Virus record (IMG/VR): IMGVR_UViG_3300042924_007884
Location: 1-38,891 of that record
DNA from: a virus
Reading direction: 5' to 3' (one strand)
Length of the DNA stretch: 38,891 nt
The translations under genes and the position numbers were made by a program. Shown here one piece after another: positions 19,748 to 36,635 of the stretch; position 1 is the stretch's first letter, and each line of letters starts with the position of its first letter. Below the pieces are notes generated by a model. It was given only the letters and a program-made list of their open reading frames with translations. It had not been told where the DNA came from and ran no database searches.

Positions 19748-20141
19748 GCCCACACCGGTCCAAGACGACCGCTACCTCGAAGCCGCTCGCGCCAAGTACA
19801 TGGGCGATTCCGACATCGAGGTGGTTGACGTTGACGACACCGACGTCATTGACGGCGCCTGGGTCAATGCCCGGATCTTCGTGCGTGACGATGAGGTCGA
19901 GTCTGCCCCGGGCCCGACTTACGACGTCTGGATCGGGGAGCAGGAAGGGATGTGGTCCCTCACTGGCCGTCCCTGGGTCTGGGTCTGCGACCAGTCCTTC
20001 TCTTGCGACGACGACCCCGATGGCAAAGGCGCACGCCGCAGTGCACACCAGTACGCCCGCGCACTGCGCAACATCTTCCCCTGCGCCGTCGTGGCGGTCA
20101 GGCCCAGCGGCAAGGCTCCGCTGCCGATCAAGCATTCTTGA
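19740..20141 (+). CDS. Hypothetical acidic protein
   Basis: 133 residues from ATG at 19740, overlapping the previous gene by 8 bases. Strand-rich and acidic (DIEVVDVDDTDVIDGAWV, ARIFVRDDEVE, WVWVCDQSFSCDDD), with a C-terminal helix-strand-basic end (AHQYARALRNIFPCAVVAV). An alpha/beta fold is plausible. Not recognised. Confidence 0.6.
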   Translation: MTEPTPVQDDRYLEAARAKYMGDSDIEVVDVDDTDVIDGAWVNARIFVRDDEVESAPGPTYDVWIGEQEGMWSLTGRPWVWVCDQSFSCDDDPDGKGARRSAHQYARALRNIFPCAVVAVRPSGKAPLPIKHS

Positions 20142-20167
20142 ATGATTTCCTCTCAGAACCTCCCCTC

Positions 20168-20839: not shown

Positions 20840-20856
20840 GCAGCCGGTGAATCTTA

Positions 20857-21732: not shown

Positions 21733-21944
21733 CCTTTTCCGAATGGGTCCAGGCCGCCGGGCGCTTCAAGCCCGATCCGATGGGCGGCAATGATCGCAAC
21801 TTTGAAGCCGACTGCGCTCCGTATTCCCGTTCTTCTCCCAGCGGCACGCGCACGTTTTTCCCCAAAACCCTGCGCGACGCCTGGCGCAACGGGGAAGACC
21901 CCACCGAACACCGCGCCGCTGCCCCTGGGCGGCGCTTTGATTGA
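21729..21944 (+). CDS. Small protein with putative CTG start
   Basis: 71 residues if translation begins at CTG 21729, which makes a 4-base CTGA overlap with the preceding stop just like the ATGA and GTGA junctions elsewhere. Begins LTFSEWVQAAGRF, and contains LRDAWRNGEDPTEHRA, a pattern I have seen in phage proteins with an EW..A...F..................LR.AW..GEDP layout. The next in-frame ATG (21780) would cut off the EWVQAAG segment. The coding assignment is good; the start is the uncertain part. Confidence 0.55.
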   Translation: MTFSEWVQAAGRFKPDPMGGNDRNFEADCAPYSRSSPSGTRTFFPKTLRDAWRNGEDPTEHRAAAPGRRFD

Positions 21945-21986
21945 TCGCATCCTCCGTCCATCCCACCCAACCAGCACGATCCCGCC

Positions 21987-22184
21987 ATGAGCACCAACCC
22001 CATCGTCACCTGCCAGCACTGCCTTGCCACCCGCGACTGCACCCTGCATCCCCGGGCCAGCGTTCCGGTTGAAGCGGCCAAGCGCTGGCTGAAGGCCAAA
22101 TGCCCAGGCCGCAAGACCATAGGAACCAAGTGCAGGTTCACCTATCAATGCGGCGTCGCGCTCTCCTTGCCTCCCCGCCAGTAG
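21987..22184 (+). CDS. Small zinc-ribbon-like protein
   Basis: 65 residues from ATG at 21987. Two CxxC-like knuckles: VTCQHCLATRDCTLHP at about residues 8-21 and KCPGRKTIGTKCRFTYQC at about 38-55. Basic overall, which fits nucleic-acid contact. A terminator follows at 22211. Function unknown. Confidence 0.6.
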   Translation: MSTNPIVTCQHCLATRDCTLHPRASVPVEAAKRWLKAKCPGRKTIGTKCRFTYQCGVALSLPPRQ

Positions 22185-22210
22185 GCTTGCGGCCCAGATC
22201 TGATCCCCTC

Positions 22211-22241
22211 CCCCGCCCTGCACGCCAGGCGCGGGGTTTTC
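22211..22241 (+). terminator. Rho-independent terminator
   Basis: CCCCGC (22211-22216) pairs with GCGGGG (22231-22236), extended by CCTG/CAGG with one bulge, then TTTTCT. It closes the block before the GP88-like gene. Confidence 0.8.
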
Positions 22242-22263
22242 TAGTGCCCCACATGCCCGCTTC

Positions 22264-23064
22264 ATGAACTTCTGGCGCTTGCAGCCCTTCATCACGGCCG
22301 CGCCATCGGACCAGCTGGTGCGATTTACTCATGGCAATTCCAAATTGCCGAACTCGACCATGATCCTTTCCCTGCCCGCCGGCCACACCTGCCCCGGCGC
22401 CAAGGACTGCCTCACCCGCGTCCCTCGCGACGGCGGTTCTGCCTGGACCTCGCCGGGCTTGAACTTCGCTTGCTATGCCGCGTCCCAGGAGCGCTACCGC
22501 TCAACCGTGCGGAACCTCCGCTGGCGCAACTTCGACCTGCTGGCTTCACTCAACAGCTACGACATCACGGCCAACCTGGCCACGGCTTTCTTCCAGCAGC
22601 GCCGCTCCTTCACTAAGCGAGTCAGATTCTTCGAGAGCGGCGACGCCTTCAAGCCTGAGCTGGCCTCCGCCATCACAACATTCGCTTGGGCGATCGAGCC
22701 CATGGTCGTCTACCTCTATTCCAAGGCCCTGCCCTTCTGGGTCAGCCAGGACATTCCCGCCAACCTCCGCATCACCGCCAGCTGGGGCGGCCGCTTTGAC
22801 CGCCTGATCACCGACCACTTCCCAAGAAGCGCGCGAGTGGTGCAAACTGAAGCAGAAGCGTGCAGCCTGGGTCTTCCTCTGGACTTTGACGACAGCTACG
22901 CCTACCAGGACGAGCCCGTCCACTTCGCCCACCTGGTGCACGGGTGGCAGCCCAAGGGCTCAGGCGCCGCCAACGCCATCAACGCCCGCCGGACCGCCGG
23001 AGAGTTCACTGGCTACGGCGCTTCCAATTCCAATCCCCATCGATCCCTCGCCCCCTCATGCTGA
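22264..23064 (+). CDS. GP88-like Cys-rich phage protein
   Basis: 266 residues from ATG at 22264. The first 90 residues (HGNSKLPNSTMILSLPAGHTCPGAKDC and later PGLNFACYAASQERYR...RNLRWRNFDLL) match the motif of a protein family present in cyanophages and other large phages, related to gp88 (SLPAGHTCPG.., C....CYA). Spaced Cys residues and Arg-rich ends suggest a metal or nucleic-acid binding protein. Length is typical. Function of the family is not established. It begins a new unit 23 bases after a terminator. Confidence 0.78.
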   Translation: MNFWRLQPFITAAPSDQLVRFTHGNSKLPNSTMILSLPAGHTCPGAKDCLTRVPRDGGSAWTSPGLNFACYAASQERYRSTVRNLRWRNFDLLASLNSYDITANLATAFFQQRRSFTKRVRFFESGDAFKPELASAITTFAWAIEPMVVYLYSKALPFWVSQDIPANLRITASWGGRFDRLITDHFPRSARVVQTEAEACSLGLPLDFDDSYAYQDEPVHFAHLVHGWQPKGSGAANAINARRTAGEFTGYGASNSNPHRSLAPSC

Positions 23065-23435
23065 AGACCGAGATCTCTTCCAAGATTCCCCTGCTCCTGG
23101 GCCTTTCTGCGCCCCCCATCAAGGACCAGGTCGAGAGCCAGGGGCTCACCCTGCTCAATCACGAACTCTGGGAGCGTCGCCACACCGCCATGAACCTGCT
23201 GAACATTGGCGGCTTCCTGACCGCGATTGAAGTCGAGCGCATCGCTCAGCGCTTGATGACAGGTATCTGCCAGGACGCCTACTTCGAGGAAGCCGTCCGC
23301 GAGGTAGAGGCGGAGGCCGCGGCCGAAGCCGCCCCTGCTGCTCCCGCCCCGCCTTTGCCCCACCAGGAGTGGAGCGCCGGGGAGCTTGATGCTTACCTCG
23401 CCGACGAGGGGCATCTCCCAAGGCAGGGGCAATGA
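23058..23435 (+). CDS. Hypothetical protein
   Basis: 125 residues from ATG at 23058 (overlapping the GP88-like stop by 7 bases). Helical middle (HELWERRHTAMNLLNIGGFLTAIEVERIAQRLMTGI) and a low-complexity Glu/Ala/Pro linker (EVEAEAAAEAAPAAPAPPLP), then WSAGELDAYLADEG. The linker suggests a flexible hinge between two short helices. Not recognised. Confidence 0.58.
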   Translation: MLKTEISSKIPLLLGLSAPPIKDQVESQGLTLLNHELWERRHTAMNLLNIGGFLTAIEVERIAQRLMTGICQDAYFEEAVREVEAEAAAEAAPAAPAPPLPHQEWSAGELDAYLADEGHLPRQGQ

Positions 23436-23920
23436 GCGCCAACGCGCAAAAGCACCCCCTCCGCGTCGGCCAAATTCTCTACCGCTACCAGGACCAGGTC
23501 GTTGCTTGCGACAACTGGGACCACCCTGGTTTCATCTACTCCCTGGGCGGCCACGTCGAGGTCTACTGCATCGAGGGCCGCGTTGACCGTTTGACCCTCA
23601 AGGGCGCCCACGTCAAGTTCCCCGACTACATCAACGATCGCTGGATCTCGGCAAGCGCCCGCAAGCGTTTCGCCTATCCCACGATGGCGGAGGCCTGGGA
23701 GTCCTACCAGGCCCGCAAGCGCTGCCAGTGCGAGCACCTCAAGCGCCAGCTGCTGCGTGCCGAGGCGGCGTTCGCTCTTGAGCAGCCGGCGGCTACGGCG
23801 GCTCAGGAGCTTGCGGGGCAGGTTCTTCCGCGTGCTATCTCGGAGGATGACAATGCCTTCTTTGATGACCTTTGTTTTCGGCAAGGGCAAATACGATTGT
23901 TACTCCCACCGAGCACATGA
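23432..23920 (+). CDS. Hypothetical protein
   Basis: 162 residues, ATG in an ATGA overlap. Strand-rich first half (VGQILYRYQDQVVACDNWDHPGFIYSLGGHVEVYCI), a basic helical middle (ARKRFAYPTMAEAWESYQARKRC; HLKRQLLRAEAAFAL) and a weak C-terminus. A small beta-barrel or clamp-like domain is conceivable. ATGA coupled to the next gene. Confidence 0.6.
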   Translation: MSANAQKHPLRVGQILYRYQDQVVACDNWDHPGFIYSLGGHVEVYCIEGRVDRLTLKGAHVKFPDYINDRWISASARKRFAYPTMAEAWESYQARKRCQCEHLKRQLLRAEAAFALEQPAATAAQELAGQVLPRAISEDDNAFFDDLCFRQGQIRLLLPPST

Positions 23921-24240
23921 GCGCAACTCCCAGCCTGACAGAAGACACTGATTTCGTGCGGAGTAACGGCTACGTGCTCGATCCCGCCAGGGATCTTGAG
24001 CGCTTTACGCTCATGCAGTACAGCGCAATGGAATGGCACCTGCAACACAATCTCTACCCGCCGATGGACCGCCGCTTGGCCACGCCATGCCTTGAGGCCA
24101 TCGAGCACTTCCGCCAAGGCAATCCTGACGCTCCAATTACAATCAACGGAGCGACCGAGATCAAGGGCAAGCCGATTACGGCGTCCTTGTTGATAGAGGA
24201 TCTTGCGCTTGGCGATTTTCTGGTCTCCTGCACTGACTAA
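23917..24240 (+). CDS. Hypothetical protein
   Basis: 107 residues, ATG in an ATGA overlap. Polar and helical with LERFTLMQYSAMEWHLQHNLYPPMDRR and a strand-rich end (ITINGATEIKGKPITASLLIEDLALGDFLV). Coding composition is normal, but no domain is recognised. Confidence 0.6.
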   Translation: MSATPSLTEDTDFVRSNGYVLDPARDLERFTLMQYSAMEWHLQHNLYPPMDRRLATPCLEAIEHFRQGNPDAPITINGATEIKGKPITASLLIEDLALGDFLVSCTD

Positions 24241-24275
24241 CGCGCCGATTCTCTTCACGTTTTCGTCCCCGCCCC

Positions 24276-24557
24276 ATGCACGCCCCCATCAAAGCCTGCT
24301 CTTTCCTTTCAGTTTCCGACGTCCTGTCCTCTCACCTCACGACGCAGGGGGAGCAAGATCAGTTCTGGAAACTCTATCTCGACGGCCTACCTTACTGCCG
24401 CTACGGTGACGGCTTCCTGAGCCTGATACCCGCTAAGAAATTTGCCGATAACTGTCAAGATCGACTAGGTCACCGCGGAAAGACCTGGACGGACTTCCTG
24501 CAAGAGGTCCGTGCCATTGGGCGCCTCGAGGGGCTCTACGTCGACCTTGAGTCCTGA
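24276..24557 (+). CDS. Hypothetical protein
   Basis: 93 residues from ATG at 24276 after a pyrimidine-rich leader. Contains SFLSVSDVLSSHLTTQGEQDQFWKLYLDGLPYCRYGDGFLSLIPAKKF, suggesting a helix followed by strands, and ends in a short helix and strand (RLEGLYVDLES). No family recognised. Confidence 0.58.
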   Translation: MHAPIKACSFLSVSDVLSSHLTTQGEQDQFWKLYLDGLPYCRYGDGFLSLIPAKKFADNCQDRLGHRGKTWTDFLQEVRAIGRLEGLYVDLES

Positions 24558-24569
24558 CCACTCGCCACA

Positions 24570-24785
24570 GTGAGCCCACCCCTCGAATCCATCACTGTCT
24601 CCGGCCACGAGCTGATGTCCTTCTACCATCAGCTCCGGCTGATGACCGCCGGCGAATCCCTCGCCGAGCCCAACGCCGTCTCTCTCCTCAACGAAAGAGC
24701 AGGCGTGCGCCGCGGGAGCCACTACTGGCTTGAGGCCTTAGGCCCCGCTTATGACTCTATGACTTCTGGAGGAACTGCACCATGA
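24570..24785 (+). CDS. Small hypothetical protein, GTG start
   Basis: 71 residues from GTG at 24570. Contains ESITVSGHELMSFYHQLRLMTAGE and a His/Arg/Trp-rich end (VRRGSHYWLEALGPAYDS). Next start overlaps by four bases (ATGA), which supports this frame. Function unknown. Confidence 0.52.
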   Translation: MSPPLESITVSGHELMSFYHQLRLMTAGESLAEPNAVSLLNERAGVRRGSHYWLEALGPAYDSMTSGGTAP

Positions 24786-25213
24786 CCTTTGATCCTGACA
24801 GCATCACGCCATCGGAAGAGTTACTGGAAGAGTGTATTTCAAACCCAGGAAGCATTGGAAGAGATTGCACCCTTGCCGCCCGCTGGGGCGCCGCCCAGGC
24901 CGTCAAGGCGCTGCGGCATCAGTGGCCTGAGCCGATTACGGATCGGCCGCCGGCTGAAGAGGATGCGGATGAATGTGGATTCGTTCAGTATCTTTTTGCG
25001 GGGAAATGGAACTTTGATTCCTGGGATAACGTTGCCAAGAACCAGCACCAGGCCTGGCTCCACACCGCCAACTGGCGCCCGATGCGCGAGCCTACGCTGA
25101 AGGAGCGGGCGCCGGCGCTGCTGGACAGCAAGGATTTTGACACGGACTTTACCACCGAGCAGATCGCCCTGCTGCGGCAAGTTGTGGAGTCAGCCCCCGA
25201 CGCAACCCCATGA
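24782..25213 (+). CDS. Protein with EDAD-type domain
   Basis: 143 residues, start in an ATGA overlap. After a helical N-terminus comes EPITDRPPAEEDADECGFVQYL, a Trp-rich stretch (KWNFDSWDNV) and AWLHTANWRP. The same layout (IT.R.P..EDAD..G..Q.L....W...W..V.........W.HT..W.P) recurs in the C-terminal part of the protein at 29704. It looks like a small mobile domain used by several genes of this element. ATGA coupled to the next gene. Confidence 0.6.
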   Translation: MTFDPDSITPSEELLEECISNPGSIGRDCTLAARWGAAQAVKALRHQWPEPITDRPPAEEDADECGFVQYLFAGKWNFDSWDNVAKNQHQAWLHTANWRPMREPTLKERAPALLDSKDFDTDFTTEQIALLRQVVESAPDATP

Positions 25214-25575
25214 GCGCCCCTATGGACCTTGTTGACCTTTTTGTCGGCACCACCTCCTTCCGCCAGGGAGAAGTGGACCGCACTCATCGCGTTTGGACCT
25301 TGCTTGTCCCGCCAGGCAGAGACTTTCGGGTCTCCGTCCATCGCCACCAGAACTACCCGCCTACTCAGTGGCTGGCATCCTGCGAAGCCATGAACATCAA
25401 CTGCCTCAAGCTCGCTGCAGTCGACGCCCCCGCTGCCAAGCTGGAGGCGCTGCACGCCATCGGCGACATCCTTGCGAATCGCCTCAAGCGCATCAACAGC
25501 GCACTGGCACTAATGAACCCGGATCCGGATGCCACAGTTCCACTTGAGGCATCCCCTCCGCCGCCATCCGATTAA
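25210..25575 (+). CDS. Hypothetical protein
   Basis: 121 residues, ATG in an ATGA overlap. Strand-rich first half (DLVDLFVGTTSFRQGEV; RVWTLLVPPGRDFRVSVH), helical second half (AAKLEALHAIGDILANRLKRINSAL) and a Pro-rich end. The 3' end overlaps the convergent minus-strand gene by about 83 bases. Not recognised. Confidence 0.58.
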   Translation: MSAPMDLVDLFVGTTSFRQGEVDRTHRVWTLLVPPGRDFRVSVHRHQNYPPTQWLASCEAMNINCLKLAAVDAPAAKLEALHAIGDILANRLKRINSALALMNPDPDATVPLEASPPPPSD

Positions 25576-25804
25576 GCGATAGCACTAACTCTCGGGCCCA
25601 TTCCTCCAGCAGGAGTGGGTTCGTTTGATTCCATTCATGGATGAAATTCCAGCGCCCTCCAGGCAAAGCTTTCAGCTTCACGTCCACTGCGCCGGGGCGA
25701 TTGTCCACGTCCCGAACATGCACGATCAACCCTTCCCCAACCCGGAAGGTCGGACCCATGGCCAGCAGCTCGGGGAGAACCACGAAGGCGGCCATCGTGA
25801 TCAA
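25493..25804 (-). CDS. Small membrane-anchored protein on the minus strand
   Basis: 103 residues from TTG at 25804; an in-frame CTG at 25873 would extend it upstream with a basic segment (SWRRRSW) and a longer hydrophobic stretch, a more natural membrane N-terminus. The TM helix (LITMAAFVVLPELLAM) is followed by a soluble domain with VGEGLIVHVRDVDNRPGAVDVKLKALPGG and WNFIHEWNQTNPLLLEEW. This fits a periplasm- or cytoplasm-facing small anchored protein. Convergent with the gene before it. Family not recognised. Confidence 0.55.
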   Translation of the reverse strand: MITMAAFVVLPELLAMGPTFRVGEGLIVHVRDVDNRPGAVDVKLKALPGGRWNFIHEWNQTNPLLLEEWARELVLSLNRMAAEGMPQVELWHPDPGSLVPVRC

Positions 25805-25915
25805 TGCAGTTGCAACCAGGCTAGTCCAAGAGCGCCGTCTCCAACTCGCCGCAAGCTTGCTGACAGGCGGCAGCCATAGGGTCTACCTTGGCTGTCCTGC
25901 CTCCCACCGGCTTCC

Positions 25916-26095
25916 ATGCGACAGCGCGCCGTGCTGATTCGTCTTGCCGACGATCAGCCTCTTGAGCCTTCTTGGAATCCCTTGATCGAACCCGGGGAGC
26001 TTGAGAGCAGCAACCAACGCCTGCTCGCCATTGCTAGCCCTTTCCGCTGGCGCTGGCTATACGCCATTCCTTCCCCACACGCACCATGCAGCTGA
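25916..26095 (+). CDS. Small hypothetical protein
   Basis: 59 residues from ATG at 25916: MRQRAVLIRLADDQPLEPSW, then a helical and basic end (NQRLLAIASPFRWRWLYAI). Its TGA (26093-26095) overlaps the ATG of the next gene by 10 bases in the window's usual style. Short, so coding is uncertain. Confidence 0.4.
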   Translation: MRQRAVLIRLADDQPLEPSWNPLIEPGELESSNQRLLAIASPFRWRWLYAIPSPHAPCS

Positions 26096-26823
26096 ACTGT
26101 GAGAGTCGCCTGTTTGCCGTCGGCGCGGACTTTGCTGGCAACTATGCCCCCTATCAGGGAATTTACTTCTGCCCAGGCCCTCGCGGCGTCGGCGTCATCG
26201 CGTCTTCCTCCGATCGCGGGGCACTGACCTTCGTCGGCTATGACGAGTCTGGCACCATCGACGAACCGGTCGTTTTCATTCCCACCAGCGAGCTGGCCGC
26301 CGCCAGTCGGGGGCTCAAGAGCGGCCCGCGCACCTTGAGCATCGACACCGAGACCGGGATCGCTGCGGTTACGACGCCGCTCAAGACCAAGGCCGGCAAG
26401 ACCGTCGAGATGTCCGCTCCGCCGGTGAGCACGATTGCCTTCCCGGACGTCCACGGCGTGGTCGCCCGCCTGGTCGCCCACTGGGAGGGCATGGGCCAGC
26501 AAGTGGATGCCTGCGGTCGCTACGACGCCAAGCTGTTGCTGCAGGCCCTGCGCGCCGCCGAGGGACTAGGCGACTCCGTCTCCCTGGTCGGGATGAGCGG
26601 CGGCCCCCTGCTGATCAACATCGAAGCTGCGGTCGAGGACGAGACAGCGAAGAAGAAAACGGTCCGGATGCAAAGCACCGGGCTGCTTTTGATGCTGATG
26701 CCTCAGACAGCACAGCCCGTTCCGCCTCCGCCCGCCTGGGTGCACCGCTGGAGCTTGGACTCACTTGCGTCCGGCGAGATTCGAGACACACGTTGCACAA
26801 CGACTACACTGGCTGAGCCCTGA
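26086..26823 (+). CDS. Sliding-clamp-like protein
   Basis: 245 residues from ATG at 26086. Its second half follows the last domain of DNA polymerase III beta clamps (residues about 145-207): RYDAKLLLQALRAAEG, then SVSLVGMSGGPLLI, then STGLLLMLMPQ, matching the pattern N..YLL.AL......V.L.......P.L.......Y.LMP. The first half is strand-rich with repeated turns, consistent with clamp-type domains. At 245 residues it is shorter than bacterial DnaN (about 370), as expected for phage trimers or dimers. It would tether the replicative polymerase to DNA. It lies next to an SSB, which supports a replication role. The call is by sequence pattern only. Confidence 0.5.
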   Translation: MQLNCESRLFAVGADFAGNYAPYQGIYFCPGPRGVGVIASSSDRGALTFVGYDESGTIDEPVVFIPTSELAAASRGLKSGPRTLSIDTETGIAAVTTPLKTKAGKTVEMSAPPVSTIAFPDVHGVVARLVAHWEGMGQQVDACGRYDAKLLLQALRAAEGLGDSVSLVGMSGGPLLINIEAAVEDETAKKKTVRMQSTGLLLMLMPQTAQPVPPPPAWVHRWSLDSLASGEIRDTRCTTTTLAEP

Positions 26824-26834
26824 CGCTCCCAACC

Positions 26835-27485
26835 TTGAGCACGGCCTCAATTCTCACCAAGATCGCCTCTCGGCCCACGCTAGAGGCGATCTCCGGCAAC
26901 GAACTTGCCACCTGCGAGACACTCACGGACGACGCCCAGAAGATCCAGCTTCGGGTCGTTGCCCGGCCTGGCTCTGCCACCGCCAACAGCCTGCTTGGCC
27001 AAGAGGTCGGCAACCTTGTCATCCTGACCGGCGACATCACCCTCGATGGTGATGGCAACTTGCCGGTCATGAACCTGCGCTCCATTTGCAAGGGCTACCA
27101 AGACCAGTTCCTTAACGAGGTGTCCGTGACCGGGCGCCTGTCCGGCCAGGTTCGGGGGGCCGAACAGTCCGATTCTTCGTCCCTGGCGGTCAACCGCCTG
27201 GAGAACGGCGAAGAGAAGGTCGATTGGTTCCGCATCCGCTGCTTTGGCGCCAACCGCGAGCGACTGCTTGACGCCCCCAAAGGAGCCTTGGTCACCGCCA
27301 GCGGCATCCTTGAGATGCGCACTTCCAAAGAGGGCACCCCCTTTGTGGAAGTCAAGGTTCGAGTCCTGCGCCTCCACGCCAGGGCCCGCGGCCACGACGC
27401 CGCTGATGGCAAGGAAGCCGCGGGCTACTCCAATGCTGACTTCGACGGCAGCGATGCCCCGCCGATGCCGGCGGACTGGAGTTGA
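26835..27485 (+). CDS. ssb: Single-stranded DNA-binding protein with two OB folds
   Basis: 216 residues from TTG at 26835. The C-terminal half (about 92-180) follows the bacterial SSB OB fold: FLNEVSVTGRLSGQVRG, WFRIRCFGANRERL, KGALVTASGILE, VEVKVRVLRLHAR. The N-terminal half (about 5-85: LTKIASRPTLEAIS, KIQLRVVARPGSATANSLLGQEV, VILTGDITLDG) resembles a second, diverged OB fold. The end is PPMPADWS and lacks the usual acidic DDIPF tip; that tip occurs instead in the protein at 4438. It binds single-stranded DNA during replication or recombination. Neighbour of the clamp-like gene, gap 11 bases. Confidence 0.75.
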   Translation: MSTASILTKIASRPTLEAISGNELATCETLTDDAQKIQLRVVARPGSATANSLLGQEVGNLVILTGDITLDGDGNLPVMNLRSICKGYQDQFLNEVSVTGRLSGQVRGAEQSDSSSLAVNRLENGEEKVDWFRIRCFGANRERLLDAPKGALVTASGILEMRTSKEGTPFVEVKVRVLRLHARARGHDAADGKEAAGYSNADFDGSDAPPMPADWS

Positions 27486-27549
27486 ATTTCGCTCCATTTT
27501 CGCCACCACCGCCCAATCTCGACGCCATTCACGCTTTTTCACTCCTTCC

Positions 27550-27828
27550 ATGGAACAAAACGATTCTTTCGCTGCAGTAATCGCCGACTTCAACGACGCG
27601 ATCGCCACTTGCTCTTCTGACTACAAAGGCAGTGACAGTCCTCACTCCGGGCACCGCTGGTCCCGCCGCAGATGGAATGGCCCAGGCCAATTCATCCAGC
27701 TGGCTCAACCCGACGTGTTAGATCTTATGACTTTTCCTTTCGTCTTCATTCACACGGTTCAAGGCTATCACATTCCCTGGCTGCCCAGCCAAGGCGACAT
27801 GCTGGCCACGGATTGGTACATCGTCTAA
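27550..27828 (+). CDS. tad2: DUF2829 / Tad2-like anti-Thoeris protein
   Basis: 92 residues from ATG at 27550 (frame open further upstream, but the start follows a pyrimidine-rich leader like its neighbours). The pattern RRRWNGPGQFIQLAQP, then FVFIHTVQGYHIPWLPSQGDMLATDWYIV, matches DUF2829: W-N-G-K/P-G-F near the middle, W..SQ.D.LA.DW at the end. DUF2829 includes Tad2, which binds and sequesters the Thoeris signal molecule and so blocks that anti-phage defence. The N-terminal 30 residues are shorter and more diverged than in classical Tad2. Anti-defence function is by family inference. Confidence 0.78.
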   Translation: MEQNDSFAAVIADFNDAIATCSSDYKGSDSPHSGHRWSRRRWNGPGQFIQLAQPDVLDLMTFPFVFIHTVQGYHIPWLPSQGDMLATDWYIV

Positions 27829-27891
27829 TCCTGTCTCACGCTCAACTCAATCCACACACCACACTGGTCCCCACCAAAGGACTGAATCCCC

Positions 27892-28611
27892 ATGAGCATG
27901 CTGCCCCCAAACTACAAAGACGCCAAAACCTGCAAGCAGGAGATGAACTCCGGCGGCGATCCCCGCTACATCGACCCCTCTAAGCTCTCCGACGGCGAGA
28001 CGATCAACGTGCGCCCTTGCGGCACATACGCTTCCGGGCATGTAATCGGCGGCTTTGAATACTTCTCCGAGACCGCCAAGCGCACTCGCCGCTTCCCGGA
28101 GTTTCCCGAGGAGTATCTCAACGACATCGGTTTGACTTGGGAGGGCAAGAACAAGGGGACCGGCGAGAAGGACCAGCCGAAGTATTTCCTCGCCATGACA
28201 GTCCTTAGCAAGGAGAGCGGTCAGTTCTCGATTCTGTTCATTCCGCAGCTCAAGCTGCGTGAACAGATGGAGCGCACTTTTGGCATTGAGGATTACATGT
28301 ATGAGGGCGATTCCATTGCCCCTTACTACTTCTCGATCACTCGCACTGGCCTAAAAAAAGACACCGCCTACTACGCCACCCCGGCCCTCAAGCCCGCCGA
28401 CCCCGATTCCATCGAGCGCTGGGAAGCGGCCCGCAACGGGATCTGGCTGCCAGCCCTCTTTGACGGCGCCGACCCGTTCGCCGGCAGGCCTGCCACGGCC
28501 AAGGGCAAGCCTGCCAAAGGCAAGGGCCAACCTCCCGAAGCGACCGACGCCCTCGGCGCCCAGGGCGTTGCTCCCACTGCAGGTGCCCCCGGGGCGGCTG
28601 ATAAGTGGTGA
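27892..28611 (+). CDS. Conserved protein, possible ssDNA-binding type
   Basis: 239 residues from ATG at 27892. Contains KQEMNSGGDPRYIDPSKLSDGE, VRPCGTYASGHVIGGFEYFSE, RRFPEFPEEYL, and IAPYYFSITRTGLKKDTAYYATP. The last part resembles the ITRTG.G..T.Y.V.P strand of phage single-stranded-DNA-binding proteins of the gp32 type. The C-terminal tail is Lys/Ala/Gly/Pro-rich. I recall similar proteins from cyanobacteria and their phages, all annotated as hypothetical. ssDNA binding is an inference; it lies two genes after the SSB. Confidence 0.6.
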   Translation: MSMLPPNYKDAKTCKQEMNSGGDPRYIDPSKLSDGETINVRPCGTYASGHVIGGFEYFSETAKRTRRFPEFPEEYLNDIGLTWEGKNKGTGEKDQPKYFLAMTVLSKESGQFSILFIPQLKLREQMERTFGIEDYMYEGDSIAPYYFSITRTGLKKDTAYYATPALKPADPDSIERWEAARNGIWLPALFDGADPFAGRPATAKGKPAKGKGQPPEATDALGAQGVAPTAGAPGAADKW

Positions 28612-28685
28612 TGGATCGTGACTTGGCGGCAGCGGCGCGCTTCGCTGACCCCCATGCTATTCGTCAACCTTCAATTCTTCTCCCC

Positions 28686-29081
28686 ATGAACCCTCAATTC
28701 CTCGACCAGGCCACAGCAGCACGCTCCGCTAGGGCCAGCGCTTCGGCGCTCGACCAGTTGTCCGCCTTGCAGGAGACCGCCAAAGGCGCCCTGATGTACG
28801 GGCTCAGCGGGCTGCCTGTTTCGATTACGACTACCCAGGTGATCTTCGTGCTGCCGGTCACGATCTCTGAGGAGCGCTCCCAGGATGACTACCTCCAGGC
28901 CTGCGACGAGCTGCTGGCTGAAGGGGCCATCGATTACTACCACTTCGTGAATCACACCGATCGCTGCCGCGCCAGCAATGGAAGCATCGACAACCTCTTC
29001 ACCATGCTCGCCACCCCGCTGGTCATCGCTGTCCGCAAGCGAAGCGCTTGCTCTACTCGAGTTGGCCCAGCGGCCGGCTGA
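28686..29081 (+). CDS. Hypothetical protein
   Basis: 131 residues from ATG at 28686, preceded by a pyrimidine-rich CTTCTCCCC leader like several neighbours; an in-frame ATG at 28611 that overlaps the previous stop would add 25 residues. Contains LDQATAARSARASASALDQLSALQETAKGALMYGL, beta strands (ITTTQVIFVLPVTIS) and helical QDDYLQACDELLAEGAID. The last 20 residues (VRKRSACSTRVGPAAG) look unlike the rest and may be shifted out of frame relative to the next ORF. Confidence 0.6.
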   Translation: MNPQFLDQATAARSARASASALDQLSALQETAKGALMYGLSGLPVSITTTQVIFVLPVTISEERSQDDYLQACDELLAEGAIDYYHFVNHTDRCRASNGSIDNLFTMLATPLVIAVRKRSACSTRVGPAAG

Positions 29082-29274
29082 CGTCAAAGCGATATTCTCC
29101 CGCTGCGACGAGGAGGTGCTCCAGCACGCCTGGGCCCTCCTCGACCCCATCCAGCGGGGGGCCCTGCTTCTCACCCGCGTTTTTCGCGGGTCTTCTATCA
29201 TTCTCGACAATTCCAGCTATGCCGACCCCGCAGACTTTGCCGGATCTGGTGAAGATTTTGATCAATCACCTTGA
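29062..29274 (+). CDS. Out-of-frame coding-like segment, possible frameshifted C-terminus or small gene
   Basis: About 70 residues if started at TTG 29062: helical LAQRPADVKAIFSRCDEEVLQHAWALLDPIQRGALLLTRVF, then a weaker tail that overlaps the next gene by 56 bases. The helical part is better coding sequence than the end of the preceding gene, as if the frame had slipped. It could be a separate overlapping gene, or the true C-terminus of the previous gene after an indel or programmed shift. Tail beyond residue 45 may not be translated. Confidence 0.35.
   Translation: MAQRPADVKAIFSRCDEEVLQHAWALLDPIQRGALLLTRVFRGSSIILDNSSYADPADFAGSGEDFDQSP
29173..29191 (+). promoter_or_regulatory. Hairpin upstream of the gene at 29219
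   Basis: ACCCGCG (29173-29179), loop of five T, CGCGGGT (29185-29191): a perfect 7-base stem 27 bases before the ATG at 29219. Similar in stem length and T-rich loop to the leader hairpins at 1334-2693, but no downstream T-run, so not a terminator. It also lies within the coding-like segment at 29062. Confidence 0.4.
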
Positions 29275-29707
29275 AGGCATTGGTAATCATTTGCAGCTTC
29301 AAACCGCCAAGCTGACGGAGATTGCTGACAGCCAGCGAGAGGCGCTAGATCGCCTGAAATCCCTCGACGTCAACATTGACGGGTTCACCGATTCTGGCGC
29401 CAACTTGCGCACTTTCCAGGTCGATCAGTACACGACAGGCTTCTTGTCGCTGCTGGGGCCCTTGCTTTCGGCCAGGCTCAACAAAGAGCTGGGCAGCCGC
29501 TCGATCCCTGACCTCATAAAGGCCTGCGCTCCTCTAACACGAGATGCCCTCGAAGAGATGGGGGCTTACCGCCAGGCCCAGGCAGGCAGGGACCTGCTTG
29601 CCAACACGGCCGGCACGATGGGCGACGCCCGGACAGAGCCCGCCCCCGATCCCAGCTCCGACTGGGACGACCTGGATAGACAGCCCTTCACCCCGCCGAG
29701 CCAATGA
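29219..29707 (+). CDS. Hypothetical helical protein
   Basis: 162 residues from ATG at 29219. Helical throughout, beginning TPQTLPDLVKILINHLEGIGNHLQLQTAKLTEIADSQREALDRLKSLDVNI, which looks like a coiled coil of about 40 residues. The second half has LLGPLLSARLNKELGSRSIPDLIKACAPL and an acidic Pro-rich tail. Probably an oligomer or scaffold. ATGA overlap with the next gene. Confidence 0.62.
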   Translation: MPTPQTLPDLVKILINHLEGIGNHLQLQTAKLTEIADSQREALDRLKSLDVNIDGFTDSGANLRTFQVDQYTTGFLSLLGPLLSARLNKELGSRSIPDLIKACAPLTRDALEEMGAYRQAQAGRDLLANTAGTMGDARTEPAPDPSSDWDDLDRQPFTPPSQ

Positions 29708-30696
29708 ACGAGTCTCAACCCTCCCCACCGAAAACCACCATCGAGGCCATTGGCCAAGACGCTCGCACCATCAAGGTAGCCTTCCAGCGCGATGGCGGCA
29801 CCAAGTTCAGCGATGCGCCACTGCCGGGGGCCAGCCGGCCGGAGACCTTGCTTTGCTCTAGCGGCAACTTTTCCGGAACCGGCGACTACTTGAAGACCTC
29901 TGTTGGCATTCCTGCTTTCGAAGACTGGCCTGACATGACCGTCGACTGGAGGCAAGACCTCCAGGGCAGGATCACCGACGTCCGTTTCACCAGGGGCGTG
30001 GCCCGCTTAACCGACCCACTTGCAATTTCTGCCATGAACATTGACCAGGCGCTCGAAAAAGCCATCAACAAAGCCATAAGCGAGCGCGAGCACGCTTTGG
30101 GCCTTGCGCTGAGCCTTGCGCTGGATCTCCCTAGCCAACACTGCCTTGCGGCGGCTATCCAAAACAAGGACAGACTCGCCTGCGTCAAGACTCCAACCGC
30201 CGCCTGGTACTACGTCGACGGACGCTGCATTTATGGACATTCCCTCATGGAAACGCACTGGACGGAAGTCAAGTTTGGCCAAGGCCCCACCTACGTCACC
30301 GTGAAGGAAAGAACCCTCAACCCGTCCGACGCTCCAGCGTTTCAACCCCCCACCCCTCCGGCAGCCCCAACGCCCGACCCCGAAGAGGGCCATCGGATGC
30401 CGACAGAAGGCATTACCCACAGGCTGCCGAGGCCGGAAGATGCAGATGCCCTGGGCACGATCCAGGTCCTGAAAGATTCTCGCTGGCTGACCTGGAGCGT
30501 GGCTGCATTCAATGGGCACGCTTCCTGTTCCCCTCAGCTGCCCTGGATGCACACCCCCGGCTGGAAGCCCGATCCCTCGGTGCTCAAAGACCAAGCGATC
30601 GCGAGAGTCAAGGACGGCCGGGCCTATTTCACCTCCACTGACAAAGCGTTGATCCTGGCGGCCCTTGAGGCGGCCCCTGCGGAGCGGGCGGTATGA
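29704..30696 (+). CDS. Two-part protein with EDAD-type C-terminal domain
   Basis: 330 residues, ATG in an ATGA overlap. N-terminal 200 residues are mixed alpha/beta (IKVAFQRDGGTKFSDAPLPG; ITDVRFTRGVARLTDPLAI; helical AISEREHALGLALSLALDL). After a Pro-rich linker (PPTPPAAPTPDPEEGHR) comes the module GITHRLPRPEDADALGTIQVL, WLTWSV, PWMHTPGWKP that also occurs at 24782. The linker indicates a composite protein assembled from separate domains. Function unknown. Confidence 0.65.
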   Translation: MNESQPSPPKTTIEAIGQDARTIKVAFQRDGGTKFSDAPLPGASRPETLLCSSGNFSGTGDYLKTSVGIPAFEDWPDMTVDWRQDLQGRITDVRFTRGVARLTDPLAISAMNIDQALEKAINKAISEREHALGLALSLALDLPSQHCLAAAIQNKDRLACVKTPTAAWYYVDGRCIYGHSLMETHWTEVKFGQGPTYVTVKERTLNPSDAPAFQPPTPPAAPTPDPEEGHRMPTEGITHRLPRPEDADALGTIQVLKDSRWLTWSVAAFNGHASCSPQLPWMHTPGWKPDPSVLKDQAIARVKDGRAYFTSTDKALILAALEAAPAERAV

Positions 30697-30944
30697 CAGC
30701 CTGGTGCGCCCCGCATAGCAGCAAGCCAAGAAGCGATCAGCAAATTGTTGACGAGTGCAACGCATTGGCACGACAGTTCTACAAAATGCAAGGCTGTGAA
30801 CAATCAGCCGACTTCAAGTTCTACGAAGCTACCCATCCGGCCGAAGCGGGGTGCTGGAACATGGCCGCATTGGCTTACGACCACATTGAGGGCACTGAAG
30901 TGGACGAGTGTCTCAGAGAGTTGGCGGAGCCTCCCAGCTGCTAA
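30693..30944 (+). CDS. Small conserved-looking protein
   Basis: 83 residues, ATG in an ATGA overlap. Contains DQQIVDECNALARQFYKMQGCEQSADFKFYEATHPAEAGCWNMAALAYDHIEGTEVDECL, helical and Cys-rich with an acidic end. I recall short proteins of this kind from cyanophages and cyanobacteria with no function. It is the last gene before a terminator. Confidence 0.6.
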   Translation: MTAWCAPHSSKPRSDQQIVDECNALARQFYKMQGCEQSADFKFYEATHPAEAGCWNMAALAYDHIEGTEVDECLRELAEPPSC

Positions 30945-31061
30945 AGTAGCCAAGCCTTCCGCCCCGCAAGAGACGGGCACGGAGGTGCTTCCTTGAAGCT
31001 GTCAGCTCAGGAAGCCTGGCTGGAGATTGGGACCTTCAGCTTCAGAGGGAGACATCTTCAA

Positions 31062-31095
31062 ACGCCCTGGGCCTTCTCCGCCCGGGGCGTTTTTT
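31062..31095 (+). terminator. Rho-independent terminator
   Basis: ACGCCC (31062-31067) pairs with GGGCGT (31085-31090), extended by GGGC/GCCC, followed by six T (31090-31095). It ends the long plus-strand transcription unit; the 117 bases between the stop at 30944 and this stem contain no obvious gene. Confidence 0.85.
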
Positions 31096-31139
31096 GTTGG
31101 CGCGTGCATCGCAAAGTCAGGCAGGCCTGCCCCTGAGTC

Positions 31140-31168
31140 TTGGCTTCGCAAGGCGCGCCTTCTACAAT
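31140..31168 (+). promoter_or_regulatory. Sigma-70-type promoter for the PD-(D/E)XK nuclease
   Basis: TTGGCT (31140-31145) as -35, exactly 17 bases, then TACAAT (31163-31168) as -10. The gene starts at 31190. This is the clearest promoter I found in the window. Confidence 0.7.
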
Positions 31169-31184
31169 GGTCTCACCTGAGACC
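31169..31184. promoter_or_regulatory. Palindromic operator next to the -10 box
   Basis: GGTCTCA, CC, TGAGACC: a perfect 7-base inverted repeat with a 2-base centre that begins at the base after the -10 box and so covers the likely transcription start. A bound repressor would block the promoter. The same half-site (GTCTCA/TGAGAC) is clustered at 35654-35811. Confidence 0.65.
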
Positions 31185-31189
31185 CTTTC

Positions 31190-32008
31190 GTGTCGCTTCG
31201 CCTTGAGATCAATGGCCGGCGGCACTATCAGGTGGCTCCTGGGGTCTACGTCCCTTCAGTGACCACTGTCCTCGGGGCGACTGCTTCGCCGGCCAGCAAG
31301 AAGGCCCTGAACAACTGGCTGGAGAAGAACCCGGGCGGGCGGGAAGCCGCGGCCGATCGCGGCACGGCCGTCCATAAAGCCTGCGAGGACTACATTCGCG
31401 GGCGCGTTGTTTCAGTCCCAGCTGAGATCCGCTGCTACTGGGACGGACTGGCGGCTCATCTCGACTCCTATGACAGCTTCATTTGGAGTGAGGTCCCCTT
31501 ACTCCCCCAGCACAGGCACCTGATCGACGCCAAGAGCGGTATCGCCATGGTGCACTCCCTCCAGTACCGCTACGCCGGCGTTCCTGACCTGATTGCCTTG
31601 CGTAACGGGGCGCACTTCCTGGTCGACTTCAAGACTTCCAGCAACCCCTACTGCCGGTTCTTTCCCAAGCAGGACGACGACGAGATCCTCGCTGCCGGGG
31701 GGTCGTTCGGGGGGTGGATGAAGTACCTCAAATGCGCCACCCAGCTGGCGGCCTACAAGATTGCGATCAAAGAGACCCTGGGGGTCACCATAAACCGAGT
31801 CGAGATCCTCACTTCCACGCCCCTGATCACGCAACGTTTCCAGATCTGTGGGCCCGAGCTCAAGAAGTTCGAGGTCAAATGGCTCCAGAAAGTTCGGGCC
31901 TACTACGACCTAGTCGCCCAGGAGACTGCAGCCGCAAGCGCCGGGCTCACCCTCGAGGAGTTGCTGGCCCTGCCGGCCGCCAAGCGGAAGGAGCTGGTGG
32001 CGGCCTAG
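31190..32008 (+). CDS. PD-(D/E)XK family nuclease
   Basis: 272 residues from GTG at 31190. The nuclease motifs are visible: a helix with RGTAVHKACEDY (H62), D133 in the motif YAGVPDLI, and the catalytic LVDFKTSS (D146, K148), followed by ATQLAAYKIAI with a Gln-Ala-Tyr pattern. This arrangement fits the PDDEXK_1 / RecB-Cas4-like exonuclease superfamily. It would cut or process DNA ends with two metal ions, for recombination or replication of the element. It has its own promoter and operator and its TAG lies in a CTAG shared with the convergent minus-strand gene. Confidence 0.82.
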   Translation: MSLRLEINGRRHYQVAPGVYVPSVTTVLGATASPASKKALNNWLEKNPGGREAAADRGTAVHKACEDYIRGRVVSVPAEIRCYWDGLAAHLDSYDSFIWSEVPLLPQHRHLIDAKSGIAMVHSLQYRYAGVPDLIALRNGAHFLVDFKTSSNPYCRFFPKQDDDEILAAGGSFGGWMKYLKCATQLAAYKIAIKETLGVTINRVEILTSTPLITQRFQICGPELKKFEVKWLQKVRAYYDLVAQETAAASAGLTLEELLALPAAKRKELVAA

Positions 32009-32340
32009 AGGCGCTGGTCGGCCCGCGCCGGCCACAGGTTCCCGGGCACCTCACCCGGCGGCGTCAGCGGCAGAACGTCACCGGGATCTGGAGGCGGTGA
32101 CCCCGCCGGCGGCATCCGGTACACGTCTTCGAGGATCTCCTTGCGCCGGCGCGCGTCGATCGCCGGGTTTGGTGTCACGTACCCCAGGGCGAACCCGCCA
32201 GCCCCGGTGAACAGACTGACCCCTTGCATATAGCAGCCGCCATCGAATTTAGTTCCGCTGACCCGGCAGTCCAAGATGTAGACCAGCCCGAGCGCAGTCA
32301 GCAATCCCGTCAGCGTGAAAACCGGTGCTGGAGCCTTCAT
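32005..32340 (-). CDS. Small two-helix membrane protein
   Basis: 111 residues from ATG at 32340, TAG within the CTAG at 32005-32008. Hydrophobic segments at about residues 7-26 (VFTLTGLLTALGLVYILDC) and 41-54 (GVSLFTGAGGFALGYV), then a basic linker (DARRRKEILEDVYRM) and a Pro-rich tail. It follows the membrane PAS gene on the minus strand with a 4-base overlap and may be co-translated with it. Possibly a partner in one membrane complex. Confidence 0.62.
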   Translation of the reverse strand: MKAPAPVFTLTGLLTALGLVYILDCRVSGTKFDGGCYMQGVSLFTGAGGFALGYVTPNPAIDARRRKEILEDVYRMPPAGSPPPDPGDVLPLTPPGEVPGNLWPARADQRL

Positions 32341-32975
32341 GATTCCTGCTCCTCAAGCGTGTCGATACGCCCCATCCATCCAACCACGGCTCCGTCTACC
32401 CGCACCGCGTCGGCCATCACCCGCACCGGAATCAGCTGGCCACTGCGCACGTTCCGCAGTCTCAAGCGGTAACCAGGGAAATCTCGCTTGTCCTGCACGG
32501 CCGACCCCCAGTCCTCGGTGTAATGAGCCAGGTCCTCTGGAGCGATGCAGTTCTTCCAGCCCAGCCCGGCTGCATCTTCAGCTGTCATGCCCACCAGTTC
32601 CAGCAGGGGCCGACTGGATTGGACGTGGACGCCTTCAGCGTTGGTCGTGTAAGACAAGACCCCAGCCCCGTCACGCATGGCGTGAGCCTGCGCCTCGACG
32701 ATCGCCAAGTGCCAGCGGATCCGGGCCAAGCATTGTTCGTTTCGTTTGGTCAGATCAAACAACGAGCCGCCGCCATTGGGATACAGCTGTCCCAAAACCA
32801 GGTCCAGCTTTCGCTGCGTCTCCCGGCCCGGCAGCCGCTTGCAGGCCCAGGAAGCCGACCTCCGCAGCAAGGGCCAGGTCCAGCTGTTCGTTTTCAAGAA
32901 GCCGTACCCCACCGCCCCCGCCCCGCCAGCCCAAGCAAGTCGCTCCAACAGCAGGGCCAACAGGACTGGATCCAT
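32337..32975 (-). CDS. Membrane-anchored PAS-domain protein
   Basis: 212 residues from ATG at 32975. Hydrophobic segment at residues about 3-27 (PVLLALLLERLAWAGGAGAVGYGF), a Leu-rich stem with LGQLYPNGGGSLFDLTKRNE, then a PAS domain from about 93 to 205 with GAGVLSYTTNAEGVHVQSSRPLLELVGMTAEDAAGLGWKNCIAPEDL and FPGYRLRLRNVRSGQLIPVRVMADAVRVDG. PAS domains bind small ligands or cofactors and pass signals. I know phage proteins with this short TM plus PNGGSSL plus PAS layout; no kinase or cyclase follows here, so its output is unknown. Shares an intergenic control region with the primase. Confidence 0.82.
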   Translation of the reverse strand: MDPVLLALLLERLAWAGGAGAVGYGFLKTNSWTWPLLRRSASWACKRLPGRETQRKLDLVLGQLYPNGGGSLFDLTKRNEQCLARIRWHLAIVEAQAHAMRDGAGVLSYTTNAEGVHVQSSRPLLELVGMTAEDAAGLGWKNCIAPEDLAHYTEDWGSAVQDKRDFPGYRLRLRNVRSGQLIPVRVMADAVRVDGAVVGWMGRIDTLEEQES

Positions 32976-33097
32976 TGCAACTGCCTACTCCTAAGCCGGA
33001 GACCTAGATGGGTTCTGCGCCCATTCTGCCACTACAGAGCAGTCTTGCGCTTCTGAGCGCCCAAGCGAATCGGGGCGGGTCGCAGTCGTCGCAAGGA

Positions 33098-33125
33098 TTG
33101 ACGCACTCTTGACGCAGTATTGACA
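33098..33125. repeat. Three phased TTGAC repeats upstream of the primase
   Basis: TTGACGCA at 33098-33105 and 33109-33116, then TTGACA at 33120-33125: starts exactly 11 bases apart, one helical turn. Further TTGACG copies occur at 35765 and 35817, on the far side of the primase gene. Such phased repeats are typical of iterons bound by initiators or of sites for response-regulator-type activators. Confidence 0.6.
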
Positions 33126-33140
33126 AGAACAGGCCCGCCC

Positions 33141-33179
33141 ATGCACACTCGAAACTGCATTCCTGCACTGCCGCCTTGA
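33141..33179 (+). CDS. Possible 12-residue leader peptide upstream of the primase
   Basis: ATG CAC ACT at 33141 gives MHTRNCIPALPP and stops at TGA 33177-33179. The stop overlaps the primase TTG start (33176-33178) as TTGA. This would give translational coupling in the manner of the ATGA junctions elsewhere. Too short to prove. Confidence 0.35.
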   Translation: MHTRNCIPALPP

Positions 33180-35545
33180 CGCCGATCCTCTGGTCCGCCC
33201 ACCCCGACATCCATGACAAACCTCTTTGGGAACCTCGTTTTGGTTATGGCTGGCAGCGGCGAGGCCCCGACCTCCAGGGCTTGATCGACCACATCACTAC
33301 TGGAGGCGCTTTTATTGCCGCCGCGATGACATCCCACCACCGCACGGCAGCGGCCTTTGAGTCCACATCCCTGGTGGCCATCGATGTCGACTATGGGCTG
33401 ACCGCCGAAGAGTTCGCTCAACACCCCCTGGCTGCCTACGCCTGCTTCGCCTACACCACTCCGTCGCATGAACCGGAGGCCGGCAAGCACCGCTTCCGCG
33501 TCTTGTTTCGCTTGCCCGAAACCATTCACAGCGGAGAACTCTGCAAAGCGATTGTCACGATTCTCACCAATGCCCTGGGCGGCGACCGCAGCTGCACCGA
33601 CCCGACCCATCTCTTCTATGGCAACACCAAGGCTATCCGCCTGATCGAGGCACCAGACGCCGCTCTTGACGGGCAAATCATCCTTGACGCCGAGGCTTTT
33701 CTCGAACAGCAGCGCATTGCCTGCCGCGATGCCGCTTCCGAGGTCGACGAGCTTTCGATCCTGCGTGCCATCCATGTTCTCGAGCAGGTGCTCAATCCCA
33801 CTTGCGACGGCGAACGCGACAAGTTCGTCCGAATCTCAGCAGCCGCCCGCGCCGGCGGTGACGCTGTCTTTCCGGCCTGGTCTGATTGGGCCAGCAGAGG
33901 GCACCACGGATCCCAGAAGAACAAGCGCCAGTCCTCCGAGCGCTGGTTCCGCGGGCTCAAGGGAAGTTCCCTGGGCACCCTGTTTTTCCTGGCTTCCGAG
34001 CAAGACCCCAGCTGGCGCGACAGCCTGCCCGATGAACTGCGCTCTAGCGAAGGCCATGGCTTCAAGGGTCACTCCGACACCTATGCCGGCTACGACGCGG
34101 AGGACTTCATGGGCGATCCAGCTATTTCGATCCCGAGCACTCCGCAGCCCTCGATGTTCGACCCCGAGTCCCCCTGGGCGAAGGTTGTAACGCTTTCTGC
34201 TTCTGCCGGCTACGAAGAGGAGGCCTTTCAGGGAGACCCACCCGAAAAACCCACAGGCGGCGACGGGGCCGGTGGGCAAGGAAAGCCCGACAAACAGGGC
34301 CCCGGTCGTCCCAAGAAGGTCAAAAACGACCCGATCGAAACGATCATGGTCCGGCTGCGCAACCTCTACCCCAGCTTGCGCCGCAACGTCGTCACCGACC
34401 AGGACGAGTTCGGTCCCAAGGGGAAGCCTCAGCAGCTGCCGGACTCCAGCACCACTTACGTCAGGCTCAGCCGCGGCACCGGCGACGTCTTCCCCAAAAC
34501 ACTTGTCAACGACTTGATCCAGGTGGTTGCCTACGAGAATCGCTACAACCCAGTCAAGGGCTACCTGGAGGGCTGTCTCTCTGGCCACACTCCTTGCCCC
34601 TACTTCGACCGCCTGGCCACTCAGCTCTTGGGCATTGAGGTTGAGGACAGCGATTCACTGGCCATCAACGGCCGCGCGGTGGCCGACGAAATCCTGCGGC
34701 GCTTCCTGATCGGGGCCGTGGCCCGTGCCATGCAGCCGGGGTGTGACATGCCCTGGATACCGATCTTCGTTGGCGCCCAGAATCTCGGCAAGTCTGCCTT
34801 CCTGCGCTACCTGGTTCCGCCCCAGCACTGCGGTCCCTCCTGGTCAGCCACGGTGCAGCAAGGCATCGGACTGCTCAAAGAGAAGCCGCACATGCTTCAT
34901 GCCGGCTGGATCGTTGTTCTTGACGAGGTCGAGCGCTACTTCCAGCGCAGGTACGTTGAGGAGCTCAAGAACTTGATTTCGACCCCAGTCGACTATTCCG
35001 CCAAGAAGTACCAGAACGAGGTTCACTACCCCCGGTCTTTTGTGATGGCTGGCGCCACCAACACCCGCGACTTTCTGGTGGACCCCACTGGAAACCGGCG
35101 CTTCTTGCCGGTCATCATCCACGGCCGGGTGCCCAGCCCCGAAGACCCACGAGTGAAGATCATTGACCTCGACCGGCTGCAGCAGGACCGCGACTCGATC
35201 TGGGCAGCCGCCTACACGGCCTACCTGGCTGGCGAGCCCTGGACCTTCTCGTCTCACGAGCTGGCCCAGGTGAATGGCTACATCGATGGATTCACTGCCG
35301 ACAGCGGCATTGCCCCCTTGGTTGCCCGGGTCTTAAGCACTCACACCACCGGGCTGATCAGGGGCCGCCGCTACGTCCTGCTCAATGAGGTGATGCAGCA
35401 AATGGGCATCGAGGTGACCAAGTTCGCCCACATGCGGACTGCGGTCAGCGACGAGCTGAAGCGGCTGGGTTGGGAATCCAAGCGGGTCTTGATCATGGCC
35501 AAGTTGACCCGGGTCTGGCTGGAGCCGGCAAGGGGGCAGTCATGA
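33176..35545 (+). CDS. Primase-helicase with VirE/VapE-type helicase domain
   Basis: 789 residues from TTG at 33176. The N-terminal 170 residues resemble an archaeo-eukaryotic-type primase core (SLVAIDVDYGL with D70 and D72; HRFRVLFRL; CTDPTHLFYGN). A disordered linker at about 300-385 carries a GPGRPKK AT-hook-like sequence. The C-terminal helicase domain shows Walker A FVGAQNLGKSAFLRYL (533-540), Walker B WIVVLDEVERYF (578-584) and a TGNRRFLPV Arg motif (640-645), which is the VirE (PF05272) pattern. It would synthesise primers and unwind DNA for the element. The 3' end overlaps the next gene by four bases (ATGA). Confidence 0.88.
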   Translation: MTPILWSAHPDIHDKPLWEPRFGYGWQRRGPDLQGLIDHITTGGAFIAAAMTSHHRTAAAFESTSLVAIDVDYGLTAEEFAQHPLAAYACFAYTTPSHEPEAGKHRFRVLFRLPETIHSGELCKAIVTILTNALGGDRSCTDPTHLFYGNTKAIRLIEAPDAALDGQIILDAEAFLEQQRIACRDAASEVDELSILRAIHVLEQVLNPTCDGERDKFVRISAAARAGGDAVFPAWSDWASRGHHGSQKNKRQSSERWFRGLKGSSLGTLFFLASEQDPSWRDSLPDELRSSEGHGFKGHSDTYAGYDAEDFMGDPAISIPSTPQPSMFDPESPWAKVVTLSASAGYEEEAFQGDPPEKPTGGDGAGGQGKPDKQGPGRPKKVKNDPIETIMVRLRNLYPSLRRNVVTDQDEFGPKGKPQQLPDSSTTYVRLSRGTGDVFPKTLVNDLIQVVAYENRYNPVKGYLEGCLSGHTPCPYFDRLATQLLGIEVEDSDSLAINGRAVADEILRRFLIGAVARAMQPGCDMPWIPIFVGAQNLGKSAFLRYLVPPQHCGPSWSATVQQGIGLLKEKPHMLHAGWIVVLDEVERYFQRRYVEELKNLISTPVDYSAKKYQNEVHYPRSFVMAGATNTRDFLVDPTGNRRFLPVIIHGRVPSPEDPRVKIIDLDRLQQDRDSIWAAAYTAYLAGEPWTFSSHELAQVNGYIDGFTADSGIAPLVARVLSTHTTGLIRGRRYVLLNEVMQQMGIEVTKFAHMRTAVSDELKRLGWESKRVLIMAKLTRVWLEPARGQS

Positions 35546-36571: not shown

Positions 36572-36635
36572 GGCGGCTGGCGTCGTTCCCTCTCTTGAAA
36601 GCTTCTTGCTCCCTTACAAGCACTCCCAAACACTT

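Follow-up and report, generated by a model that had tools for sequence, protein, structure and literature searches.

Does the short reading frame at 27550-27828 of this viral DNA encode a protein that disarms Thoeris defence, and if so, which signal would it hold? The window, that is the whole stretch analysed, is a 38,891-base viral contig (IMG/VR record IMGVR_UViG_3300042924_007884, positions 1 to 38,891), in which no tRNA genes were found. The gene and its two neighbours are:

27550..27828, plus strand: tad2-like gene, 92 amino acids plus stop, a short form of the Tad2 family (PF11195 match, AlphaFold model, fold matches, orthologues in the contigs G001 and G002)
26835..27485, plus strand: upstream neighbour, SSB-like gene (PF00436 at E 1.1e-4, a weak match below the Pfam cut-off; dN/dS 0.12-0.14)
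27892..28611, plus strand: downstream neighbour, conserved gene of 239 amino acids (dN/dS 0.06-0.08) whose product gave no match in Pfam and PHROG searches

The preliminary description had assigned the product of exactly this frame to DUF2829, the Tad2 family, and profile and fold both support the assignment. The sole Pfam match of the 92-residue product is Tad2-like PF11195, formerly DUF2829 (E 6.2e-16; 59.1 bits against a curated cut-off of 25), with protein residues 33-92 aligned to positions 12-73 of the 73-position profile. When the six-frame translation of the window was compared with a profile of other viral homologues, built without the window sequence and its orthologues, the tad2-like frame alone was significant (5.4e-24; next 0.023); composition-shuffled copies of the protein scored at most 6.8 bits against the same profile, and the real protein 79.5. 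The AlphaFold model (mean pLDDT 82) has the Tad2 fold, with Z scores of 9.0-9.4 to all solved Tad2 types; the leading matches are tied, namely ModTad2 (9.4 in the apo form, 9.2 with His-ADPR), SPO1 Tad2 (9.2) and HgmTad2 (9.1), and the next unrelated chain reaches only 4.9. Orthologues occur in two IMG/VR contigs, G001 (89%) and G002 (79%), which are, by their DNA identity of about 91-97% to the window over most of the shared length, close relatives of it; G001 (94,461 bases) is probably a complete genome, because both its ends carry an identical 127-base sequence, as is typical of a circular assembly. Both orthologues keep the ATG start and differ in length by one and two codons, all indels being multiples of three, and the homologues L105-L108 open with the same (M/V)EQN(D/E)SF. 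A longer reading frame starting at TTG 27244 (194 amino acids) was dismissed, since it would run into the SSB-like gene and since orthologues and homologues share the ATG at 27550. Profile matches, shuffled controls, conserved start and indels in multiples of three together establish that 27550-27828 is coding, beyond chance. The gene is a genuine though uncharacterised Tad2-family member of the short type, carried by a probable cyanophage.

Four parts of the protein bear on what it might bind:

27568..27651, plus strand: N-terminal helix followed by 10-15 inserted residues specific to this lineage (together about residues 7-34), common to G001 and G002
27664..27687, plus strand: RR(R/G)WNGPG motif (residues 39-46) in the beta1-beta2 loop, which contributes to the ligand pocket of known Tad2 proteins
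27706..27738, plus strand: short beta2-beta3 linker (about residues 53-63), defined by alignment and spacing counts and without a helix in the model
27778..27819, plus strand: WLPSQGDMLATDWY motif (residues 77-90), covering the pocket's beta4-alpha3 loop and its helix alpha3, defined by residue conservation

The GWNG and WLxSQxDxLAxDW pocket motifs contain every invariant residue of the family except Gly41, which is replaced by Arg. Across 57 sequences R39, W42, N43, G44, W77, S80, D83 and D88 are invariant and Q81, L85 and W89 nearly so, and the motifs are equally invariant in short and long forms. The N-terminal part had been described as shortened, but the reverse is found: as many as 32 residues lie ahead of the Pfam match, which starts at position 12 of the profile, and the helix-1 Phe and the GWNG Gly, 19 residues apart in L108 as in long Tad2 proteins, are 34 apart in the window protein. 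About 15 residues are therefore inserted between helix 1 and strand 1, or 10 under an alternative alignment that counts FNDAIA as helix 1. This insertion is absent from L105-L112 and from the solved Tad2 proteins, and residues 21-30 form a low-confidence loop in the model. A frameshifted, truncated N-terminus was considered and rejected, the first 34 residues being identical in G001 and the insertion being present in G002 as well. The shortened part is instead the central beta2-beta3 linker, which lacks about 15 residues relative to SPO1-type Tad2 and is about 11 residues long in the model, at the site where long forms have helix alpha2 or the cyclic-dinucleotide site. By the spacing from WNG to the C-terminal Trp, 35 of 77 distinct viral homologues form a short class with 35-42 residues, most often 35, and the others have mostly 43-53, in a sample skewed to short forms by the short query that headed the search. 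Functional Tad2 forms a tetramer through helix alpha2/beta2 and helix alpha1. Together with the long linker, the single-chain model of the window protein lacks helix alpha2, which has been described as contributing to the dimer interface of SPO1 Tad2, and its assembly may for that reason differ. The suggestion that a shortened N-terminus may mean a different ligand thus loses its premise; the short central linker offers a ligand argument in its place.

Among known proteins the best PDB profile match is ModTad2 (MoTad2) from a Myroides odoratus prophage (PDB 8v3e, and 9eib with His-ADPR; E 5.3e-23), which is also the top fold match and shares the pocket motifs; it differs in its longer beta2-beta3 linker and lack of an N-terminal insertion, and its binding of His-ADPR has been solved. 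SPO1 Tad2 (gp34.65; PDB 8sme, 8smf, 8smg) is likewise phage-borne and similar in fold and motifs, but has a long linker with helix alpha2 and binds gcADPR (PMC13299392). HgmTad2/AcrIIA7 and SptTad2 (PDB 8kbi-8kbk, 8wjd) share the fold (Z about 9), whereas their long cyclic-dinucleotide-binding insertion is missing from the window protein. Closer in form are uncharacterised short proteins: those of mycobacteriophages Curiosium and MalagasyRose match residues 32-92 without gaps (55-57%), and L105-L122 have the same short linker, L105-L108 also sharing the MEQNDSF start. L105-L112 nevertheless lack the 10-15 residue insertion, carry Gly before WNG and lie in unrelated gene surroundings.

The virus is probably a phage of (freshwater) cyanobacteria, as its closest terminase and exonuclease relatives are those of Synechococcus phage S-EIV1. 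The large terminase of G001 shares 46% identity with that of S-EIV1 at 90% coverage, the next phages reaching 25% or less, and the window carries a second marker of this kind:

31190..32008, plus strand: PD-(D/E)XK exonuclease tying the phage to S-EIV1 (PHROG 298, 1.9e-29; 38% identical to its S-EIV1 counterpart at E 9e-45), no other phage coming close

The identification of the element as cyanobacterium-associated is in this way upheld indirectly, and Cyanophage S-2L is among the best matches of the window helicase. No Tad2-like gene was found in S-EIV1, and no DNA-level relatives of window positions 20001-38891 were found among sequenced phages. The GC content of the window phage is 62%, against 44.5% in the S-EIV1 stretch compared and 56-63% in TIR-bearing fragments from the order of the genome G064, small cyanobacteria with alpha-carboxysomes (G064 carries the alpha-carboxysome protein CsoS2). 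The relation to S-EIV1 and the GC content make this order the likely home of the host. Elsewhere in the window lie genes for a 443-residue protein (17282-18613; PHROG 6077, 8e-52) related to phage proteins that carry the annotation histidine kinase-like ATPase, a GP88-family protein (22264-23064; PF17338, 1e-24) and a VapE-like helicase (33176-35545; PF05272, 1e-42).

The preliminary description predicted that such hosts use Thoeris and proposed a survey of TIR-SIR2 systems in their clade. Of 390 cyanobacterial genomes sampled from the class, 19 had ThsA-macro (PF20016) and 18, by our count, a ThsB_TIR match scoring at least 50 bits; coordinates place the two side by side in five genomes (G021, G139, G267, G315 and G344), and for G267 and G021 Pfam and PADLOC bear the pairing out. 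Thoeris is thus present in cyanobacteria, mostly as type II. The type I ThsA domain STALD gave five matches among the 390, all weak, and was rejected as the usual partner; L247-L249 start TIR-like (INQIYISYAW-type) with no SIR2 recognisable by eye. In 349 genomes of the order of G064, no ThsA-macro was found, a soft absence because these genomes came without completeness values and the named controls gave no PF20016 match, although the class search did, and six genomes had a strong ThsB-like TIR. The prediction for the hosts is thus weakly borne out: type II genes do occur in cyanobacteria, but the likely host order has no ThsA-macro match and few ThsB-like TIR genes, several of them beside the 8xMP membrane protein (PF24838), not ThsA. 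The TIR adjoins 8xMP in four of the six (L252, L253, L254 and L256, the L253 TIR coming from the genome search only), with gene pairs at L252:4440-5434, L254:4067-5082 and L256:4859-5721. The 8xMP protein had no match among PADLOC models and nothing relevant was found in the literature on 8xMP together with TIR; the pair is a possible TIR plus membrane-effector defence. Other arrangements were seen as well: at L238:3641-4587, in another cyanobacterium, a ThsB-like TIR directly follows a small protein matching the PADLOC candidate PDC-M50A (4e-53), L234, L237, L242 and L244 have pairs resembling it by sight, and at L243:4177-5328 an Nmad2 gene (PF18753, 8e-75) comes immediately after a ThsB-like TIR gene.

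The evolution of the gene differs from that of its neighbours. Its dN/dS is 0.49-0.63, against the far lower values listed above for the SSB-like and downstream genes, which would fit a counter-defence gene, although relaxed constraint would look identical. Close homologues sit amid unrelated genes, so the tad2-like gene is, by this comparison, an exchanged accessory gene. Within the flanks compared, no shared neighbours were found near other Tad2-like genes, and the large terminase of the window phage was not found in the contigs of the nearest homologues, several of which are fragments.

According to a review (PMC12043709), the beta1-beta2, beta3-beta4 and beta4-alpha3 loops form the gcADPR pocket of Tad2 together with helix alpha3, whereas longer Tad2 proteins hold cyclic dinucleotides in a separate insertion between beta2 and beta5. 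MoTad2 binds the His-ADPR of type II Thoeris and SPO1 Tad2 the gcADPR of type I, inhibiting type I Thoeris, so that both characterised sponges for ADPR-type signals belong to the Tad2 family (PMC13299392). Because the window protein keeps the motifs of the gcADPR pocket and its alignment lacks the long insertion between beta2 and beta5, an ADP-ribose-type ligand is favoured. The signal of type II Thoeris is His-ADPR, as bound by ModTad2, and that of type I gcADPR, as bound by SPO1 Tad2; we tentatively prefer His-ADPR or a relative, with gcADPR the less likely of two individually doubtful choices. What is established for the window protein is its family, its fold, its conserved pocket motifs, its phage context and coding constraint combined with fast evolution. 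We propose, as a probable but by no means secure reading, that it is a Tad2-family sponge for an ADPR-type signal made by a host TIR protein and blocks Thoeris. The protein, probably made during infection, would bind and hold the NAD-derived signal; the Thoeris effector would not be switched on, and the infected cell would not abort the infection. The PF11195 match, the Tad2 fold, the invariant pocket motifs, the high dN/dS, the accessory exchange and the type II Thoeris of cyanobacteria speak for the sponge, and the missing helix-alpha2 linker, Arg41 in the pocket loop and the lack of ThsA-macro in the likely host order speak against it. If the protein is active, a likely cyanophage would carry a Tad2 sponge, and one could then test whether, and with which TIR-made signals, picocyanobacteria defend themselves, a poorly explored matter. 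Since the cyclic-dinucleotide region is absent, the short form is also a natural experiment on which part of Tad2 determines the ligand.

A less probable but serious alternative is that short forms keep the Tad2 fold yet have a different small-molecule ligand or a different role in the phage, so that only the long forms, those tested, would act against Thoeris. All characterised members are indeed long, none of the solved or tested proteins having a short linker, and this reading would also accommodate both the loss of helix alpha2 and the scarcity of TIR/ThsB genes, with no ThsA-macro, in the likely host order; it is opposed by pocket motifs that are invariant, and a fold that is identical, in short and long forms. 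A more speculative possibility, which we consider unlikely, is that short-form Tad2 is a functional branch adapted to a TIR-made signal that is not gcADPR, such as one produced by the pairs of ThsB-like TIR and 8xMP in some small cyanobacteria; assembly and pocket would then be reshaped by the loss of the linker and by the extra N-terminal loop.

The residue at position 41 raises another alternative, that this is a Tad2-family gene whose allele in the window is impaired or decaying, with Arg41 and the many amino-acid changes reflecting lost constraint. Arg41 (AGA at 27670-27672) lies in the pocket loop, whereas Gly occupies this position in 84 of 84 other sequences, both orthologues included; the raw script tally was 81 Gly, two Leu and one Met, and the three exceptions (L115, L121 and L132) are upstream LWNG or MWNG matches, the true site being GWNG in all three. 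A single transition from GGA explains the Arg, and about 11 of the 16 differences from G001 are nonsynonymous. The reading frame is intact, however, its indels are multiples of three and the remaining motif residues are untouched, and a one-base sequencing or assembly error at residue 41 is another possibility. We regard decay of this allele as improbable. That the protein is a sponge for CBASS cyclic dinucleotides, as HgmTad2 and SptTad2 are by their PDB titles and PMC12043709, is the least likely, because the long beta2-beta5 insertion that forms their site is absent here and because SPO1 Tad2, with its shorter linker, does not bind 3'3'-cGAMP (PMC11722364).

Two places near the gene vary among the three related contigs. 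Between the SSB-like and tad2-like genes (27488-27532), G002 has about 340 bases of different DNA against 44 in the window, and its similarity resumes just upstream of the tad2-like start, which makes this border a likely recombination border. Some 2 kb upstream of the tad2-like gene, G001 has an RtcB RNA ligase gene (L020:7052-8272; PF01139, E 3e-129) between the equivalents of window positions 25220 and 25525. In its place the window has about 300 different bases, and G002 is collinear there with the window; by this comparison the site is an accessory one.
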